A stretch of 64,000 nt of DNA from Alphaproteobacteria bacterium (lineage in GTDB: Bacteria > Pseudomonadota > Alphaproteobacteria > JANQMY01): the NCBI GenBank assembly GCA_028289425.1, contig JANQPL010000009.1, forward strand, positions 62,001 to 126,000, in the 5' to 3' direction. Of the stretch, positions 4,771 to 62,144 are shown piece after piece (the first letter of the stretch is position 1; each line of letters starts with the position of its first letter). The notes under the pieces were generated by a model. That model was not told the origin of the DNA. It made no database searches and worked only from the letters and a program-made list of their open reading frames with translations. The position numbers and the translations under genes were made by a program.

Positions 4771-5526
4771 TCAGCGCCAATCCCCTCGGGTTGCCTGCCA
4801 AAGGCTTAGTGCCGCTACGGCAGCCGTGTCGGCGCGCATAATTCGCGGCCCCAAGGAAACTGGCAAAACAAATTCCTTTGATCTCAGCATCTCCCGCTCC
4901 GCCGGATCGAAGCCCCCTTCGGGGCCCAGAAGCAAAGACCATGGCCCGTCATTCGCCGCCGCCAGAGCAGCCAGTGCCGGCGCCGTGCCCGGGGCCTCAT
5001 CGCAATAGAGCATGCGCCGGCGCCGATCCCAGTTATCGAGCAGGCGGGGAAGCGGCAGCGGCTCGCAAACTTCCGGTACCGACAAGCAGCCGCATTGTTC
5101 GGCCGCCTCGATTGCATTGGCCACCAGGCGTTCCGTATTCACCCGCGATACTTGCGTCCGCGCCGTCATGACGGGCTGAAGCCGGCACGCCCCCAACTCG
5201 GTCGCCTTTTGCGCCAGATAGTCGATGCGCGCTTTTTTTAGTGGCGCGAACAAGAGCCATACATCTGGCAATTGGGTTTGCGGTTGTGTCTGAGAGACCG
5301 CTACAAGCTCCGTCCGATCCCGGGTGATCGATTGAATGGTGCAGATCCACTCGCCGTCTTGGCCGTTGAAGAGCTTCACTTTGGATCCGGCCACCTGGCG
5401 CATTACGTTGCGCAAATAATGGGTTTGATCGCGCTCAAGCGTGACCCGGCCATTCTGGGCGAGTCCATCGCGCACGAAGAGTCGGATGCTTACCTTGCCG
5501 GTTTCTGGGTCGACGCGTTCAGCCAT
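4771..5526 (-). CDS. rsmE: 16S rRNA (uracil-1498-N3)-methyltransferase RsmE
   Basis: This SPOUT-family enzyme methylates N3 of U1498 in helix 44 of 16S rRNA using S-adenosylmethionine. The knot motif is visible as 'LLLGPEGGFDPAERE' followed by 'VSLGPRIMRADTAAVAAL', which forms the SAM pocket. The open frame continues upstream to 5616, but I place the start at the ATG at 5524-5526 (protein begins MAERVDPE, 251 residues). This gives the normal family length and leaves a 73-bp gap to the divergent ubiA. It lies upstream of gshA on the same strand, with 190 bp between them in which I see no clear signal. Confidence 0.92.
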   Translation of the reverse strand: MAERVDPETGKVSIRLFVRDGLAQNGRVTLERDQTHYLRNVMRQVAGSKVKLFNGQDGEWICTIQSITRDRTELVAVSQTQPQTQLPDVWLLFAPLKKARIDYLAQKATELGACRLQPVMTARTQVSRVNTERLVANAIEAAEQCGCLSVPEVCEPLPLPRLLDNWDRRRRMLYCDEAPGTAPALAALAAANDGPWSLLLGPEGGFDPAEREMLRSKEFVLPVSLGPRIMRADTAAVAALSLWQATRGDWR

Positions 5527-5599
5527 GAATCTGCCTAACCTCTCGCGCCCATTTTGCCAATGGTTCCATCTTATTTGATACCGCACTAATATCCGCCCC

Positions 5600-6544
5600 A
5601 TGGAGCTCGCCCCCAAACGCCCCTACGAAGGACCGGTTTCAGACGCCCAGCCTAGCAATTGGGTGGATACTTACGCGCCGGCGGCCATCAGACCCTTTCT
5701 GAAGCTTGCACGTTGGGACAGGCCCATCGGTACATGGCTCCTCCTAATCCCGTGCTGGTGGGGGATCGCGCTTGCGGCACCGCTGACGGGCACACCGTTT
5801 CCTGATCCACTCTTGCTGCTGCTCTTCGCGGTCGGCGCGCTGGTGATGCGCGGCGCCGGCTGCACCTTCAACGACATTGTCGACCGTGACATCGACGCCA
5901 AAGTCGCTCGCACCCAAACCAGACCGCTGCCCAGTGGCTCCGTCACCCTGCAACAAGCCTGGATTTTTGTTGCAGTACAATGCTTTATCGGCCTTCTCAT
6001 ATTGTTATTTCTCAACCCCTTCACAGTCTTCCTGGGGGTCGCCTCGCTGGCTCTCGTCTTGGTTTATCCGTTCATGAAGAGGATCACCTATTGGCCGCAA
6101 GTCTTTCTGGGGCTTACCTTTAATTGGGGCATTCTCATGGGGTGGTCCGCCGTCACCGGAGGCCTGGAATGGACGCCCGCCTTCCTTTACGGCGCGGCGG
6201 TGTTCTGGACAATCGGCTATGACACCATTTACGCCCATCAAGACAAAGAAGACGATGCGCTCATCGGCGTTGGATCGACCGCTCTCAAGTTTGGCGAAAA
6301 CACGAAGGCCTGGCTGTGCGGGTTCTACGGATTAACGGCTGTGCTCCTCACCGTCGCGGGCAGCCTGGCCGGTCTTGGTTGGGGTTTTTACTCCATTCTC
6401 GCTCTGGGGATTATCCATCTCGCCCATCAAATTGTCAGCTTGCACACCGACCAGCCGAGGGTTTGCCTTAAAATCTTCAAATCCAACAGGGATTTTGGGC
6501 TGCTCATGTTCGGTGCAATCGTTGCCGGGAACATCACGGCTTAG
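5600..6544 (+). CDS. ubiA: 4-hydroxybenzoate polyprenyltransferase UbiA
   Basis: This 314-residue inner-membrane prenyltransferase attaches the polyprenyl tail to 4-hydroxybenzoate in ubiquinone synthesis. The first aspartate-rich Mg-diphosphate motif is NDIVDRDID at residues 91-99. The second, 'YDTIYAHQDKEDD', is near residues 207-219. About eight or nine hydrophobic helices fill the rest. Length and motif spacing are normal. It is divergent from rsmE. Its TAG stop is directly followed by AGCGGG, giving the same TAGAGCG heptamer found at both ends of the 2910-3222 element. Confidence 0.94.
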   Translation: MELAPKRPYEGPVSDAQPSNWVDTYAPAAIRPFLKLARWDRPIGTWLLLIPCWWGIALAAPLTGTPFPDPLLLLLFAVGALVMRGAGCTFNDIVDRDIDAKVARTQTRPLPSGSVTLQQAWIFVAVQCFIGLLILLFLNPFTVFLGVASLALVLVYPFMKRITYWPQVFLGLTFNWGILMGWSAVTGGLEWTPAFLYGAAVFWTIGYDTIYAHQDKEDDALIGVGSTALKFGENTKAWLCGFYGLTAVLLTVAGSLAGLGWGFYSILALGIIHLAHQIVSLHTDQPRVCLKIFKSNRDFGLLMFGAIVAGNITA

Positions 6545-55890: not shown

Positions 55891-57395
55891 GACGCGCCTG
55901 CCGGAACATGACGGGCAAGCATCTCTTTGACTTGGCCCACAAGTTCCTTGCGGTCGATGGCGATTTGGGCGGGCTGGCCCTTGCGCCATTCTTCGGAGGT
56001 TTCGATTTCCGATGAAAGCGCCGCCCCCAGAATAAGATCTTTGAGGGTCACTTGACCGGCGTTGCGCTCGTCTTCTCCTTCGATGACCACAACGGGCGCA
56101 TTGCGCTTGTCGGCATATTTGAGCTGGGCGCGCATGCCGCTGCCGCCGAGATAAAGTTCCGCGCGCACGCCCGCATTGCGCAGCTCCGTCACCATCTTCT
56201 GGTAGCGGCCGATTTGTTCGTTATCCATCACCAACACCACGACGGGCCCGAACCGACGTGCCTCGCCGGCCGTGTCGCGTGCGACCAGTGCCGACAAGAG
56301 ACGGTCGACACCGATGGAAATGCCGGTGGCGGGCACTTCCACCCCTTTGAAGCGCTTCACCAGATCGTCATAACGGCCGCCGCCCGCAACGGAACCGAAC
56401 TGCACCACCTGCCCTTTGTCGTTGGTGACTTCGAAGGTGAGCTCGGCCTCAAACACGGGACCGGTGTAATATTCCAGGCCGCGCACCACGCTGGGGTCGA
56501 TCTCCACCGTACCGCTGTTGCTGCCAGATGCCTCCACGAATTCGGCGATCTGTTCCAGTTCGCGCACGCCCGCAAGGCCCGCTTCCTGATCTTTCACCAG
56601 TTCTTCAAGGCGCTTACACACCGCCTCGTTGCCGCCGCCGCCCGCTTCCACAAAGCCCATCACCAGATCGATTTGGCTGGGGTCGAGGCCCGCGCCATCT
56701 GTGTAATCGCCCGAGTCATCCAAGCGCCCCTTGCCCAGTAAAGCGCGCACACCGTCGCCCCCCAAACGATCGAGCTTGTCCACTGCACGCAGCACGGTGA
56801 GGCGTTGCCGGTAGCCCTCGTCCGTTTCCGCATCCCCGCCGATGGCGTTCAAAATGCCATTGAGTACTTTGCGGTTGTTCACCCGCACTTTGAATTCGTC
56901 TGCCTGCAGACCAAGTGTGCTGAGCGTCTCGGCGACCATCACGCACAGCTCCGCATCGGCCGCCATCAACGGCGTGCCCACCGTGTCCGCATCGAACTGG
57001 TAAAACTCGCGATAGCGGCCCGGCCCCGGCTTTTCATTGCGCCACACGGGTCCCACCTGATAGCGCCGGAAGGGCTTTGCCAGACTGTCGTAACGCTCCG
57101 CCACCAACCGGGCGAGCGGCGCCGTCAAGTCGTACCGCAGGGCGAGCCATTGTTCGTCATCGTCCTGAAACCCGAAGACACCCCCCATGGGGCGGTCTTC
57201 GTCGGGCAGAAACTTGCCCAAGGCATCCACATATTCAATGGACGAAGTTTCCAGAGGATCGAAGCCGTATTGTTCGTAGACGGTCCGGATGCGGTCGATC
57301 ATGTCCAGGCGCGCAGAGACATCCCCCGCAAATTGATCGCGAAAGCCGCGGGGCAGCCTGGCCTTGGGCCGAAATTTCTTTTCTTTCTTTGCCAT
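55887..57395 (-). CDS. hisS: Histidine-tRNA ligase HisS
   Basis: A 502-residue class II synthetase of the alphaproteobacterial type. Motif 1 is near 'RLDMIDRIRTVYEQYGFDPLETSSIEY', motif 2 'PVWRNEKPGPGRYREFYQFDADTVG' and motif 3 'GFGSVAGGGRYDDLVKRF...TGISIGVDRLLSAL'. The C-terminal anticodon-binding domain begins at 'VVVLVMDNEQIGRYQKMV'. It is longer than E. coli HisS, as is usual for this clade. It heads the operon with hisZ and hisG. Confidence 0.95.
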   Translation of the reverse strand: MAKKEKKFRPKARLPRGFRDQFAGDVSARLDMIDRIRTVYEQYGFDPLETSSIEYVDALGKFLPDEDRPMGGVFGFQDDDEQWLALRYDLTAPLARLVAERYDSLAKPFRRYQVGPVWRNEKPGPGRYREFYQFDADTVGTPLMAADAELCVMVAETLSTLGLQADEFKVRVNNRKVLNGILNAIGGDAETDEGYRQRLTVLRAVDKLDRLGGDGVRALLGKGRLDDSGDYTDGAGLDPSQIDLVMGFVEAGGGGNEAVCKRLEELVKDQEAGLAGVRELEQIAEFVEASGSNSGTVEIDPSVVRGLEYYTGPVFEAELTFEVTNDKGQVVQFGSVAGGGRYDDLVKRFKGVEVPATGISIGVDRLLSALVARDTAGEARRFGPVVVLVMDNEQIGRYQKMVTELRNAGVRAELYLGGSGMRAQLKYADKRNAPVVVIEGEDERNAGQVTLKDLILGAALSSEIETSEEWRKGQPAQIAIDRKELVGQVKEMLARHVPAGAS

Positions 57396-57546
57396 GATCG
57401 TGTGTCCGGGGCCCGTACAGCCAAAGAGGCCAGGCCAATGGGCGCCTTACCTAACCCATCGCTTGGCCGGCGGCAAGGAGTTGAATTCACCGCCCTGTGA
57501 GCAAGGTTTACCTGACGGAAGGCCGCCAAATCGTTAATTTCAGTCC

Positions 57547-58263
57547 ATGATCAGCGTCATCATCCCTACGTTGGACGAGGCCCATAACCTGCCGCGCGTG
57601 CTGGAGGCGCTGGCGGCCGAGCCCACCCCTCATGAGGTGATCGTGTCCGATGGCGGCAGCGCGGATAACACTTGCGCCATTGCCCGATCGTTTGGCGTGC
57701 GCCTCATCGAAGGGCCCGCCGCCCGGGGGGCACAATTGCGGCGCGGGGCGGACGCAGCGGGGGGCGATACCTTCTTCTTCCTGCATGCCGATTGCCGGAT
57801 TGCACCCAGCACGCTTGCCGCCATTGAACGCTGTCTTTCACAATCCTCGGATTTGATCGGCGGCAATTTTGCGCTGTTGTTCGACGGGGGCGATGGCTTC
57901 AGTGAATGGCTTAACGGGTTTTACGCATGGTTCCGGGAGAAGGGCCTGTACTACGGCGATAGCGGCGTGTTCATCCGCCGCCGGACTTATGATGAGTTGG
58001 GCGGCATTCCCGACTGGCCGTTGATGGAAGATTTCCGCTTTACCCGATTGATGGAACGATACCGGCGCGCCGGCCGCGGGGACACCATCTGCATTGCCGA
58101 CCCGCCCCTTGTCACCTCTTCCCGGCGTTTCAGCAACAAATCCCCCGCCTACATCTTCTGGCACTGGTGCCTGATCCACGGGCTTTACTACGCCAATTTC
58201 CCGACCGCGAAGCTGGCGGCATGGTATTATCACGACCGCGCGAAGTGGTGGGCAGCGAAGTAG
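57547..58263 (+). CDS. Family 2 glycosyltransferase (TIGR04283 type)
   Basis: A 238-residue GT-A enzyme with 'ISVIIPTLDEAHNLPRVLEAL', the nucleotide loop 'EVIVSDGGSADNTCAIARSFG' and the DxD-like 'FFFLHADCRIAP'. The later 'GVFIRRRTYDELGGIPDWPLMEDFRFTRLMER' includes the ED(F) catalytic region. Its acceptor is unknown; such genes are usually single or paired with a TIGR04282 gene. The last 66 bp, coding for 'FPTAKLAAWYYHDRAKWWAAK' and the stop, are repeated at 60060-60125 on the far side of the inserted patch. Confidence 0.85.
   Translation: MISVIIPTLDEAHNLPRVLEALAAEPTPHEVIVSDGGSADNTCAIARSFGVRLIEGPAARGAQLRRGADAAGGDTFFFLHADCRIAPSTLAAIERCLSQSSDLIGGNFALLFDGGDGFSEWLNGFYAWFREKGLYYGDSGVFIRRRTYDELGGIPDWPLMEDFRFTRLMERYRRAGRGDTICIADPPLVTSSRRFSNKSPAYIFWHWCLIHGLYYANFPTAKLAAWYYHDRAKWWAAK
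58198..58263 (+). repeat. Direct repeat, left copy (glycosyltransferase 3' end)
   Basis: 66 bp at the 3' end of the glycosyltransferase gene. The partner at 60060-60125 differs at only a few positions (TAT/TAC, GCG/CCC, AAG/AAA, GCA/GCG and the stop TAG/TAA). The differences are mostly silent, so the two copies come from diverged homologues rather than a fresh duplication. Confidence 0.9.
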
Positions 58264-58275
58264 TTAAGAACTACA

Positions 58276-58371
58276 ATGAAAGATGCGACTCAGTCATTTC
58301 CAATCGAAACGCGCGAAGCCGCGTCTTTGAGCGCTAAATACGTTGTAGTGACTAACGGGTCTCGAAGATAA
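58276..58371 (+). pseudogene. Short ORF or 5' remnant upstream of the AAA-TOPRIM gene
   Basis: A 31-residue frame (MKDATQSFPIETREAASL.., ending 'AKYVVVTNGSRR') is in the same reading frame as the AAA-TOPRIM gene and is separated from it by a TAA and six codons. It lacks a good ribosome-binding site. 'AKYVVVTNG' recalls the N-terminal domain of type I restriction HsdR proteins, but the match is too short to rely on. It is either a leader peptide, the 5' end of the ATPase gene cut by a stop, or a remnant. Confidence 0.35.
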
Positions 58372-58389
58372 CCAAGCGAGCGCAGAACA

Positions 58390-59727
58390 TTGCGTGTATT
58401 TCAGTTTGATGAAAAGCCGGTTGTTGGACTTTCGCAAACAACCGAGAAATTCTTGAGTGAAGCAGAGACGTACTCCCTAAGCGTTCTTTGTGGAAGAAAC
58501 AATTGCGGCAAGTCATATATCTTGAAGACTTTGGCCGAGCGTATCGGGGAAGCCGCCAGTTACCTCGGTCCCGCTAGATACCAGAACTTTACCATACTCG
58601 CTCCTTATCAGCCACAGCGGGGAAGAAAGAGAAGAATTCAGGAGCACCAGAATTTCATCTCAAACTGGCACAACCAATCGCAAAACGTAGATAACTCACC
58701 TCGAAACCTCCAGTCGGCCATTGCTGAAATGTCAGACGCCGATCGGGCTATTCTTATCGAAATCATGGAAGTCCTACTCGGTGTAAAAATGGAAATACGT
58801 CACACCGTCGACGACAACGAAATGTCTAATAAGTACGTATCGGTCGATGGCCACAACATCTCATTCACGAGCTCTGGCTATCGGCTTACCGCGAGTTTGA
58901 TTACGTCTTTATTAGACAAAGAATACCAAGTCTACTTAATCGACGAACCAGAGCTTGGAATTAGCCCTGAAGTTCAGGGCATCATTGCCGACTTCCTATT
59001 TGACTCAAAAAACAGAACCAAATACTTCGCCCATATCAAATCTCTTGTGCTGGCGACTCACTCAACAATTTTCCTCGACCGCAAAAATTTCCGCACAAAT
59101 TATTTCGTTGAGAAGAATCAAGATGAAATAGTCATGACTCGTGCTTCATCGCCTGCGGAGATAAACAAAATACACTTCTTCCTTTTAGGAAACCGGCTTG
59201 AGCACCTTTATCTTCCTTCTTCGATTGTGATCGTAGAAGGTAAAACCGATCACCAGTTTATCGAACGTGCCTTAATTACACGTTTCCCCGACAATCAGAT
59301 CAGCGTGGTGTCAGCAAATACCGACAACAGAGTCAAAGAAGTTCTAAAGATGGCGCAATCTCTTCTGGGAGACATCCAAAAAGGTCCATTCAGAAATCGA
59401 GTGTTCGTAATTCTCGATTCTCGCCATCAGACTTCATTGATCGATCAATTAGAGAGAATGGGGCTGCCGAAAGAGCAGATAATTGTTTGGAGTCAAAATG
59501 GAATTGAGCACTGCTATCCGCGACAGATTCTCCAACATATTTTTGGAGCCGAAGGCCCAATCTCTATAAGTGGCGACGTTGTAGAGATTAATGCAGTTAG
59601 AAAAACAAAGAGCGATTTAGCTGACGAAGTGGTGGCGCGGCTCACCAAAGATTCTCAGTTTCCAGAAGAGTTTGAATGTCGTTTCTTGAGTAAGATCTCT
59701 GAAACCATTGAGCATCCGACATTGTGA
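58390..59727 (+). CDS. OLD-like AAA ATPase with C-terminal TOPRIM domain
   Basis: A 445-residue protein with two domains. The N-terminal ABC-type AAA ATPase has Walker A GRNNCGKSY (residues 35-43), a signature-like 'FTSSGYRLTASL' (159-170), Walker B 'VYLIDEPELGISP' (181-193) and the H-loop LATHS (221-225). The C-terminal TOPRIM domain starts with 'IVIVEGKTDHQFIE' (279-292, Glu283). The second acidic motif, 'FVILDSRHQ', has Asp343 but Arg in place of the second Asp of DxD. A DUF4435-like 'WSQNGIEHCYPRQIL' follows. The family includes OLD, GajA and other phage-defence nucleases. The start is a TTG at 58390. Base composition is AT-rich, unlike both neighbours. It is the only intact gene in the insert. 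Confidence 0.82.
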   Translation: MRVFQFDEKPVVGLSQTTEKFLSEAETYSLSVLCGRNNCGKSYILKTLAERIGEAASYLGPARYQNFTILAPYQPQRGRKRRIQEHQNFISNWHNQSQNVDNSPRNLQSAIAEMSDADRAILIEIMEVLLGVKMEIRHTVDDNEMSNKYVSVDGHNISFTSSGYRLTASLITSLLDKEYQVYLIDEPELGISPEVQGIIADFLFDSKNRTKYFAHIKSLVLATHSTIFLDRKNFRTNYFVEKNQDEIVMTRASSPAEINKIHFFLLGNRLEHLYLPSSIVIVEGKTDHQFIERALITRFPDNQISVVSANTDNRVKEVLKMAQSLLGDIQKGPFRNRVFVILDSRHQTSLIDQLERMGLPKEQIIVWSQNGIEHCYPRQILQHIFGAEGPISISGDVVEINAVRKTKSDLADEVVARLTKDSQFPEEFECRFLSKISETIEHPTL

Positions 59728-59729
59728 TC

Positions 59730-59899
59730 AAGTCTGAGAGATGCTCTGAGGTGGATTGTCAATCTGATTTCAGAGCGGCAAAGAAAGCCGTATCTATTTT
59801 TACAATGATGCACTCAATCCAGAACGCTCCGCTGCGAATCTTGCCAAGTATCTGGAAAAGCTCAAGATCTTGCTCAAGCTTCAAGCTCCGATACGTTAG
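59730..59899 (+). pseudogene. Frameshifted gene remnant downstream of the ATPase
   Basis: After the ATPase stop the same frame encodes 'SLRDALRWIVNLISERQRKPYLFLQ' and stops. Another frame then encodes 'KESRIYFYNDALNPERSA' and 'ANLAKYLEKLKILLKLQ' up to a TAG at 59897-59899. Read with one frameshift near 59800 these join into one helical, protein-like segment. I do not recognise the family. It looks like the 3' end of a lost gene. Confidence 0.4.
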
Positions 59900-59941
59900 G
59901 CAAGACGCATAATTTTGGAAGATGTCTGAGCAGCCCGAAAA

Positions 59942-60059
59942 TCACCCGGCCACACGCCACTGCACCAGGGTGAAGGGCGGGTCGGCGTCGCGGTGGTGTT
60001 CGAAGACGGCCGCAACCGGCGCGCCGATGATCACCTCTTGCTCGGGATCACCGAGCAAG
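59942..60059 (-). pseudogene. C-terminal fragment of a DUF35 OB-fold protein
   Basis: On the minus strand, ending in a TGA at 59942-59944, 40 residues read 'NLLGDPEQEVIIGAPVAAVF' then 'EHHRDADPPFTLVQWRVAG'. The I-G-x-P-V-x-x-V-F-E pattern followed by a short acidic loop and a final aromatic/basic strand is that of the C-terminus of DUF35 (acyl-CoA-associated OB-fold) proteins. The reading is lost where the 66-bp direct repeat begins, so the gene is cut at that junction. Confidence 0.6.
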
Positions 60060-60125
60060 TTCCCGACCGCGAAGCTGGCGGCATGGTATTACCACGACCG
60101 CCCCAAATGGTGGGCGGCGAAGTAA
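60060..60125 (+). repeat. Direct repeat, right copy (glycosyltransferase 3' end)
   Basis: This copy encodes 'FPTAKLAAWYYHDRPKWWAAK' and a TAA stop, with no upstream part of a glycosyltransferase gene in frame. With 58198-58263 it bounds the inserted patch of about 1.8 kb. Confidence 0.9.
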
Positions 60126-60179
60126 TCAGCGCGACAATAAAATCTGTATACTGAAAATAATCTCCCGACCTCCCGGTTT

Positions 60180-60785
60180 CTAGTGTAAATCGGGATCGTG
60201 ACTTGTCCGATACGCTGGCCGCGCTTTGATCCGGCTGACATAAGCGGACACTTTCGCTGAGGGGGACGCCAGCAAACCAAAGCGCACGAAATAATCCAAC
60301 GTGCCGCCGAAGACCACATCGGCCGCCGTAAACTGTTTGCCCAAAACCCAGCCTTCTTCGGGTGTCATGGCATCAATCGTGGCCAAACAGCGCTCCAGGT
60401 CGCCCCAACCGACCGATTGAGCAGAATAGTCTTTGAGGCCCAGCTGGTTGACCGTAAACATGGGCTCAAGCGTGGTGCCGGGAAAGAACAGATAACGGTA
60501 GTAGCGGCCCCTTTCCGCCGACCCCACGGGCGGCGCCAAGCCCTTTTCGGGAAACTTGTCAGCCAGATAGGCGCAAATGGCCGCCGCTTCGGTCACCACA
60601 ATGTCGCCGTCCACCAGAGCGGGCACTTTGCCCATGGGGTTTATTGCTCGGTATTCAGGACGATTGTTTTCGCCATTCGGAAAGTCGATAAAGACCTGCT
60701 CATGCGCGGCATCGAGCTCCGTAAGCATCCAATGGGTCGTGACTGCCCGGCTCATGGGGTGGAAATAGTGTTTCATCTGGGGCAT
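60180..60785 (-). CDS. Glutathione S-transferase family protein
   Basis: A 201-residue protein with an N-terminal thioredoxin-like domain: 'MKHYFHPMSRAVTTHWMLTELDA' carries the Ser/Arg active-site region, and 'NPMGKVPALVDGDIVVTEAAAICAYLAD' holds the cis-Pro (VPAL) and the glutathione-binding 'TEAAAI' (usually ES). A helical C-terminal domain follows ('WVLGKQFTAADVVFGGTLDYFVRFGLL'). It should conjugate or reduce small electrophiles with glutathione. ATGs at 60785 and 60776 are both possible starts. Confidence 0.9.
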   Translation of the reverse strand: MPQMKHYFHPMSRAVTTHWMLTELDAAHEQVFIDFPNGENNRPEYRAINPMGKVPALVDGDIVVTEAAAICAYLADKFPEKGLAPPVGSAERGRYYRYLFFPGTTLEPMFTVNQLGLKDYSAQSVGWGDLERCLATIDAMTPEEGWVLGKQFTAADVVFGGTLDYFVRFGLLASPSAKVSAYVSRIKARPAYRTSHDPDLH

Positions 60786-60828
60786 CGGCCTTTGCGTTAG
60801 AGAGTGACGGTGTGCATGTTACCGCCAT

Positions 60829-60867
60829 CCTCCTGACAACCTTGTGTCAGGAGGCATGACCATGGTC
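60829..60867. promoter_or_regulatory. Two palindromes in a divergent promoter region
   Basis: A perfect 10-bp stem, CCTCCTGACA/TGTCAGGAGG (60829-60838, 60845-60854), and a nearby 10-bp palindrome, GACCATGGTC (60858-60867), lie between the divergent GST and DUF4336 genes. No T run follows, so they are better read as an operator or an mRNA 5' hairpin than as a terminator. No regulator is encoded nearby. Confidence 0.45.
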
Positions 60868-60895
60868 AAAGAAATCCTAGGAAGGATAACGCGTT

Positions 60896-61594
60896 TTGCC
60901 CGCCAAATTGGTACAGCCCTTTGGTGACAACATCTGGACCGTGGACGGGCCGGTCGTCACCTCGTTCGGCTTTCGCTATCCGACCCGCATGGCGATTATT
61001 AAGCTCGCCGATGGCGGCCTCTTCGCATTGTCGCCGATTGCGCTTTCGGAGGATCTTCGCGGTGAAGTGGATGCGATTGGCGCCGTTACGCACATCGTCG
61101 CACCGAATTCGCTGCATCATCTGTTTCTAACGGAATGGCAGACCGCCTATCCCGGCGCGCAGGTCTATGCACCGCCCGGCCTGCGGCAGCGGCGCAAGGA
61201 CATTGCCTTTGACGGCGATATCGGGGATGGCCCCGCCCCCTGGTCCGGCGATATCGATCACGTGGCGGTCAACGGCAATGTGCTCACTACGGAAGTGGTG
61301 TGCTTCCACCGCGCAAGCGGCACGGTGCTGTTCACCGACCTTCTGCAAAACTTCAGCCCAGATTGGTTCACTGGCTGGCAGGCGATGATTGCGCGCCTGG
61401 ACTTGATGGTCGGTGACGAGCCTCAAGTGCCGCGCAAGTTTCGTGTCGCTTTTACCAACCGAAAGGCGGCGCGCGCGGCGGTGCGCCAAATCCTCGCCTG
61501 GCCCGCAACCCAGGTGCTGATGGCCCACGGAACCCCGGTCCGGGAAGACGGTGCCGCCTTCATCGCCCGCGCCTTTCAATGGCTCATCCGCTGA
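60896..61594 (+). CDS. DUF4336 protein (metallo-beta-lactamase-like fold)
   Basis: A 232-residue protein with the DUF4336 sequence features: 'GDNIWTVDGPVVTSFGFRYPTRMAIIKLADGGLFALSPIAL', 'AVTHIVAPNSLHHLFLTEWQTAYPGAQVYAPPGL', 'EVVCFHRASGTVLFTDLLQNF' and a final 'VLMAHGTPV'. The His pairs are those of a degenerate metallo-beta-lactamase fold. The activity of the family is unknown. The start is a TTG at 60896 with AGGAAGGA upstream. Confidence 0.82.
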   Translation: MPAKLVQPFGDNIWTVDGPVVTSFGFRYPTRMAIIKLADGGLFALSPIALSEDLRGEVDAIGAVTHIVAPNSLHHLFLTEWQTAYPGAQVYAPPGLRQRRKDIAFDGDIGDGPAPWSGDIDHVAVNGNVLTTEVVCFHRASGTVLFTDLLQNFSPDWFTGWQAMIARLDLMVGDEPQVPRKFRVAFTNRKAARAAVRQILAWPATQVLMAHGTPVREDGAAFIARAFQWLIR

Positions 61595-61658
61595 TGCCCG
61601 CGCCGCCTAACGGGGCACCGGGCTTGCAAACGCAGGCGACCCTCCGTACCACTTTCCC

Positions 61659-62144
61659 ATGGCACGCTTGCTGATCGTTTATCACTCCAAGACCGGCGGC
61701 ACCCGGCAAATGGCGCAGGCCGCGGCCGACGCGGCCCGCGCGGAAGCGGACGTGGCGTTGAAACGGGCGCACGAAGCCGGTCCCGACGATCTGCTTGCCG
61801 CCGACGGCTACATCTTCGCAACGCCCGAGAATCTTGCGGCCATTGCCGGCATCATGAAGGATTTTTACGACCGCTGTTATTATCCCGTGCTCGGACGGAT
61901 TGAAGGCCGCCCTTATGCTCAGCTCATCTGCGCTGGGTCGGATGGCGAAAACGCCGCCCGTCAAACGGCGCGCATCGCCACCGGCTGGCGCCTCAAACAA
62001 GTGCAGGAACCGATTATCATCTGTACACACGCACAAACGCCGGAGGCGATCTTGGCGGAAAAGACCATCGCGCCCGGCGATCTCGACCGCTGCCGCGAAC
62101 TCGGCGCGGCCATGGCGGCCGGACTTGCGATGGGTGTGTTTTAA
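61659..62144 (+). CDS. Flavodoxin-fold protein / FMN reductase-like
   Basis: A 161-residue cytoplasmic protein with the FMN phosphate loop 'LLIVYHSKTGGTRQMAQAAADAA' and 'DGYIFATPENLAAIAGIMKDFYDRCY', typical of the NADPH-dependent FMN reductase/flavodoxin superfamily. 'LICAGSDGENAARQTARIATGWRL' is the second FMN loop. The electron donor and acceptor are unknown. The small membrane protein follows after 15 bp. Confidence 0.82.
   Translation: MARLLIVYHSKTGGTRQMAQAAADAARAEADVALKRAHEAGPDDLLAADGYIFATPENLAAIAGIMKDFYDRCYYPVLGRIEGRPYAQLICAGSDGENAARQTARIATGWRLKQVQEPIIICTHAQTPEAILAEKTIAPGDLDRCRELGAAMAAGLAMGVF

Follow-up and report, generated by a model that had tools for sequence, protein, structure and literature searches.

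A compact OLD-like ATPase/TOPRIM gene, probably a lone antiphage effector, in a patchwork of foreign fragments behind a glycosyltransferase gene

The OLD proteins for which broad antiphage defense has been proven so far require partners, the helicase of Gabija or a retron (PMC10568477). In Thermus OLD, the metal ligands are E377, D431, and D433 together with D381, S478, and E480, and the metal-A triad has the form E, D-x-D (PMC7049728). Integrons are known to carry antiphage genes (Darracq 2025, Kieffer 2025, and Getz 2025, in the passages of PMC12444791 that cite them). The locus described here lies in a window of 64,000 nucleotides, the whole stretch of alphaproteobacterial DNA that was analyzed. 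It contains, in a patchwork of foreign scraps, a single acquired gene whose product is probably an OLD-like nuclease, with ABC ATPase and TOPRIM domains, that serves as a lone antiphage effector, a function assigned from family, fold, and neighbors.

Layout and Composition of the Locus

The locus comprises the following features, where G001 is the other species of the genus available for comparison.

57547–58263, + strand: intact, resident glycosyltransferase gene adjoining hisS (TIGR04283-like, 177.9 bits against a cut-off of 182)
58194–58262, + strand: left repeat copy, the 3' end of the intact glycosyltransferase gene
58264–58389, no strand: AT-rich leader (46.8% GC) with no recognized gene and no attC-like fold (DNA fold z-score -0.59)
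58390–59727, + strand: gene for a compact OLD-like protein of 445 residues with an ABC ATPase and a TOPRIM domain
59768–59899, + strand: reading frame of a 43-residue C-terminal gene fragment
59942–60058, - strand: fragment at 67.5% GC that comprises the final 38 codons of an OB-fold (DUF35-type) gene of foreign origin
60056–60125, + strand: right repeat copy, an orphan glycosyltransferase 3'-end fragment with its own stop codon
60180–60785, - strand: glutathione S-transferase (GST) gene that flanks the insert on the right; G001 has it next to the same right-hand neighborhood

The direct repeat of 66 bp reported in a preliminary description of this DNA is present and extends leftward to 69 bp (58194–58262 and 60056–60124, identity 63/69). 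It is not a chance match, because the runner-up ungapped match to it in the entire window reaches just 35/69. The differences are mainly silent, as had been noted: over the in-frame 69 bp up to the stop codons, six of the seven fall on third codon positions (P ~0.007 for at least six of seven at an expected rate of 1/3), and each glycosyltransferase end was therefore being translated as the two diverged. An identical core (58198–58229) lies at the inner edge of the repeat and is followed by the mostly silent differences. An imperfect inverted repeat, GTTAAGAACTACAATG and CGTTGTAGTGACTAAC (58262–58357, ~12/16), begins at the glycosyltransferase stop codon, in an orientation that is not that of attC.

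Between the repeat copies lies 1.67 kb of DNA at 44–47% GC (58264–59935), as compared with 62% before it and 57–62% in the flanking genes, and the edge in base composition falls directly behind the glycosyltransferase stop codon. By block, the GC content is 46.8% in 58264–58389, 44.2% in 58390–59727, 45.2% in 59728–59935, and 67.5% in 59936–60055; the AT-rich insert described earlier is thus real in its drop to 44–47% but is not uniform, the 120 bp that adjoin the right copy being at 67.5%. As described, the insert has one intact gene (58390–59727), which encodes the 445 residues from a TTG at the start position of its relatives, and pieces of other genes, namely the OB-fold gene 3' end and the 43-residue C-terminal fragment. 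The OB-fold fragment has 58–68% amino acid identity to proteins from Cupriavidus, Delftia, Variovorax, and Burkholderia and has no second copy in its own genome (G000) or in G001; it is truncated at the start of the right repeat, and the two share CAAG at the joint. The 43-residue fragment had no match in plasmids, and its weak Pfam match as an MpAgo-like protein (E 0.011) was taken as chance. A GTTAGGC near 59895, considered as an integron core site, is unpaired and overlaps the stop codon of this fragment's frame. Scans for promoters and terminators gave nothing beyond chance, and no Rfam RNA family matched in 57000–61000. No second intact gene or further defense gene was seen in the insert, so that of the small acquired defense island proposed earlier the acquisition stands but the island amounts to one intact gene.

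The Protein and Its Family

The earlier identification of an OLD-like AAA-TOPRIM protein agrees with the Pfam domains, the PADLOC matches, and the predicted OLD-type TOPRIM fold. AAA_15 and AAA_21 of Pfam score above their cut-offs, the OLD-like TOPRIM match is weak and below its cut-off, and all six members of the alignment, which comprises the window protein and five close relatives, match the PADLOC models AriA, Old, and ATPase-Toprim weakly. The ATPase motifs are intact (Walker A GRNNCGKS, Walker B YLIDEPE, and H-loop ATHS), the TOPRIM motifs are EGKTD, LDSRH, and NGIE, and E283, D287, D343, H346, and E373 are invariant across the six aligned members. Foldseek and VIA matches to the full model lie chiefly in the ATPase, and the TOPRIM domain was therefore folded alone from six sequences. 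The best match of this model (pLDDT 86) is the C-terminal region of Burkholderia pseudomallei OLD (Z 11.4, 152 aligned residues, rmsd 3.5), followed by Xanthomonas OLD, Thermus OLD, and GajA at Z 9–11, against a Rossmann background of ~8; the OLD C-terminal regions are matched at Z 10–11 over 128–160 residues. The ATPase domain is closest in fold to PtuA/AriA/OLD.

When ligands are matched to those of Thermus OLD by motif and fold, rather than from a solved structure, the TsOLD metal-A triad (PMC7049728) is incomplete: E283 and D343 are present, but the position of D433 is occupied by R345 and, in the other five aligned members, by V or I. H346, one residue further on, is the invariant histidine. 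Because the second metal-A Asp is missing, the protein is not placed among the canonical Class 1 OLD nucleases and, as read from its motifs, is a variant of that class; the known two-metal mechanism may not be available to a TOPRIM domain lacking the complete triad. The protein nevertheless most likely works like a Class 1 OLD nuclease. The protein would act alone, with a dimerized ATPase domain that would sense an infection-linked signal, in the form of DNA ends or of a phage protein. It would then switch on the C-terminal TOPRIM domain, which would cut nucleic acid and so end the infection, possibly through death of the cell. This mode of activation and this substrate are our inference.

Members of this family are scarce and occur in more than one phylum. 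There are seven including that of the window, and the other six are in unrelated bacteria. One scan of species genomes gave the five close relatives, from Marinobacterium (55% identity), Oceanihabitans, a contig labeled Pleurocapsales, Roseateles, and Polaromonas; the sixth (L095) came from a sample of genomes of the class to which the Polaromonas genome (G507) belongs. Among samples of 190, 398, 399, and 369 genomes, L095 was the sole find apart from the window's genome and G507, and, with the window's own genome counted, the family was present in 3 of the ~1,300 genomes searched. The nearest relatives come from Gammaproteobacteria, from Bacteroidota, and from a contig labeled cyanobacterial. 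The ATPase had no match in plasmid and phage records, and the viral contigs gave either none or generic ATPase similarity only.

From the sites that surround them, the Roseateles (L058) and Marinobacterium (L055) relatives are clearly integron cassettes. The L058 gene is the first cassette behind an integron integrase (4799–5638; TIGR02249, 244 bits against a cut-off of 265) that is broken after about two-thirds of its length, and the cassette start, GTTAGGCGTCTC, is over 12 nt the exact complement of its own attC start (0/1000 shuffles); the L055 gene has attC-like sites on both sides. The cassette signature was not significant for Oceanihabitans (L056) and L059 and was nominal only, at an implausible position, in the Pleurocapsales contig (L057). 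A full-size Old gene follows the relative in L056, a CBASS cyclase adjoins that in L057, and in L095 (6697–10532) the relative lies between transposase-like genes identified by reading the sequence.

The replacement of the second metal-A Asp in all six aligned members would suit a mobile housekeeping or repair ATPase, or a protein with an inactive TOPRIM domain that works by binding only, and we regard this as a rather unlikely alternative to a defense effector. The patchy distribution, the integron cassettes, and the defense genes beside some relatives fit defense instead, and the invariant E, D, H, and E residues are unlike those of a dead domain. With the antiphage reading, a broader proposal can be made tentatively: the members may form a compact stand-alone OLD-like antiphage family, for which the searched libraries have no dedicated model and which spread between phyla largely by integron cassettes, whose TOPRIM domain, with D-x-x-H for D-x-D, cuts nucleic acid differently or only binds it. 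If true, this would bear on the question, raised in PMC10568477, of whether a single bacterial OLD-type gene can defend broadly alone. A cassette-borne one-gene family would be an easy test case for defense by a lone OLD-like protein, and the altered metal site would show flexibility of TOPRIM catalysis.

Acquisition and Placement of the Insert

The ATPase gene was almost certainly acquired, because the congener has the same flanking genes without it. This comparison of the locus is with one other species of the genus, G001, in a fragmented assembly, in which the glycosyltransferase gene (77% nucleotide identity, with hisS its neighbor there too) lies with hisS, hisZ, and hisG on one contig in the order seen in the window at 77–79% nucleotide identity, and the GST gene is followed on a second contig by the homologue of the 62416–63999 gene, again in the window's order, at 76–79% nucleotide identity. 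The alignment of relatives at this locus, suggested earlier as a check, thus gives the same flanking genes and no ATPase, but the two contigs break between glycosyltransferase and GST, one at 188 bp behind the glycosyltransferase gene and the other at the GST stop codon. Across this gap, the comparison supports an acquisition on the lineage of the window. The contig ends (L023 1–110 and L036 1–104) have similar terminal repeats, with 20/27 bases alike and CTAG in each, and the end on the glycosyltransferase side recurs on another contig; an insertion sequence probably lies between the two genes in G001. The genome G002 keeps a glycosyltransferase relative, but its gene order differs and it is uninformative for the site. 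To the right of the GST gene, a DUF4336 gene and a flavodoxin-like gene (60896–62144) precede the next gene in the window, and neither was found at that place in G001. The locus itself is an ordinary case of foreign DNA lodged between a pair of housekeeping genes.

The recent acquisition proposed in the preliminary description is supported by the codon usage of the ATPase gene, with a GC3 of 47.5% as compared with 68–76% in its neighbors, and by the finding of no ATPase relative in the G001 assembly or elsewhere among 190 related genomes, its own excepted. That a single congener was compared, and that its assembly breaks at the site, leaves slight room for the ATPase gene to be an old resident lost from the congener, the repeat being a local duplication. 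We consider this very improbable given the GC3, the lack of relatives in the 190 genomes, and the position of the nearest relatives outside the Alphaproteobacteria; the repeat copies, moreover, differ at third codon positions, unlike a decaying duplicate.

Placement by homologous exchange, as first suggested, is possible but unproven and is one of several routes to the same anatomy. A plausible account, although one we hold short of probable, is that one side of the incoming DNA paired with the glycosyltransferase 3' end and that the other joined illegitimately, inside the foreign OB-fold gene fragment. Such one-sided pairing is the cheapest account of the placement; it would explain why the OB-fold fragment is cut with CAAG at its joint and why no recombinase is present. 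The earlier remark that no integrase is near is correct in that none lies within the insert, and the five tyrosine recombinase matches of the genome are on other contigs. A somewhat less likely account, between which and one-sided pairing the data do not decide, is that a site-specific element restored the glycosyltransferase 3' end and has the repeats as its attL and attR, its integrase having been deleted or acting in trans (a cis-mobilizable remnant). The element e14 uses the end of the icd gene as its target and restores the gene with its own 3' end. Here too, the repeat spans the end of the gene as far as the stop codon, the glycosyltransferase gene stays intact, the identical core lies at the inner edge with mostly silent differences beyond it, and both copies diverged under coding constraint. 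In addition, the right (displaced) copy agrees with the sister species G001 at five of six informative positions and the left at one (two-sided sign test ~0.2). This makes it doubtful that the right copy came with the inserted segment, as had been claimed, and fits an insertion that restores the 3' end no less well than homologous exchange; if either copy is the newcomer it would, if anything, be the left 3' end, although six sites give a weak indication. Against a site-specific element are the lack of an integrase in the insert, the absence of the glycosyltransferase gene end from all viral contigs in a pattern search, and the 67.5% GC OB-fold fragment beside the right copy, which would be odd for element DNA. 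Arrival as an integron cassette at a non-classical (attG) site, with later loss of attC, would accord with the cassettes of L055 and L058 and with the G/TT step at which the AT-rich block begins after the glycosyltransferase stop codon. It is nevertheless improbable, because there is no R''/R' pair around the window gene and no attC-like fold (z 0.46 and -0.59), and because cassette insertion makes no 69-bp repeat.

Comparison with Described Systems

The insert differs from a site-specific integrative element in having no integrase gene within the repeats. It is linked to integron-borne antiphage cassettes through L055 and L058, which have attC hairpins and, in L058, an adjoining integrase, whereas the window copy lacks an attC and is not part of an integron. 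Unlike Retron-Eco8 (Class 3 OLD), the predicted nuclease of the window has no reverse transcriptase or ncRNA beside it, and it scores 37 bits with the Retron-Eco8 effector model against a cut-off of 250. The best PADLOC match is AriA of PARIS, over the ATPase part (128–230), and the ATPase fold is similar; however, there is no separate AriB gene, and the TOPRIM domain is in the same chain and nearer to OLD. Gabija GajA (Class 2 OLD) has the same two domains and is matched by the TOPRIM model, but the window protein is shorter and is adjoined by the glycosyltransferase gene, the scraps, and the GST gene rather than by a GajB UvrD/PcrA/Rep-like helicase.

The Class 1 OLD nucleases (P2 Old and Thermus scotoductus OLD) are likewise encoded by single genes and have an N-terminal ABC ATPase and a C-terminal TOPRIM domain. 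The window protein has no helicase or retron partner, its predicted architecture is an ABC ATPase followed by an OLD-type TOPRIM domain, and the fold match to T. scotoductus OLD (6p74) has Z 10.3 over 128 aligned residues with an rmsd of 3.3. It differs from this class in its length, 445 residues as compared with ~528–580, and in its metal-A site, where R345 stands at the third position of the triad in place of the second Asp and an invariant His follows one residue on.
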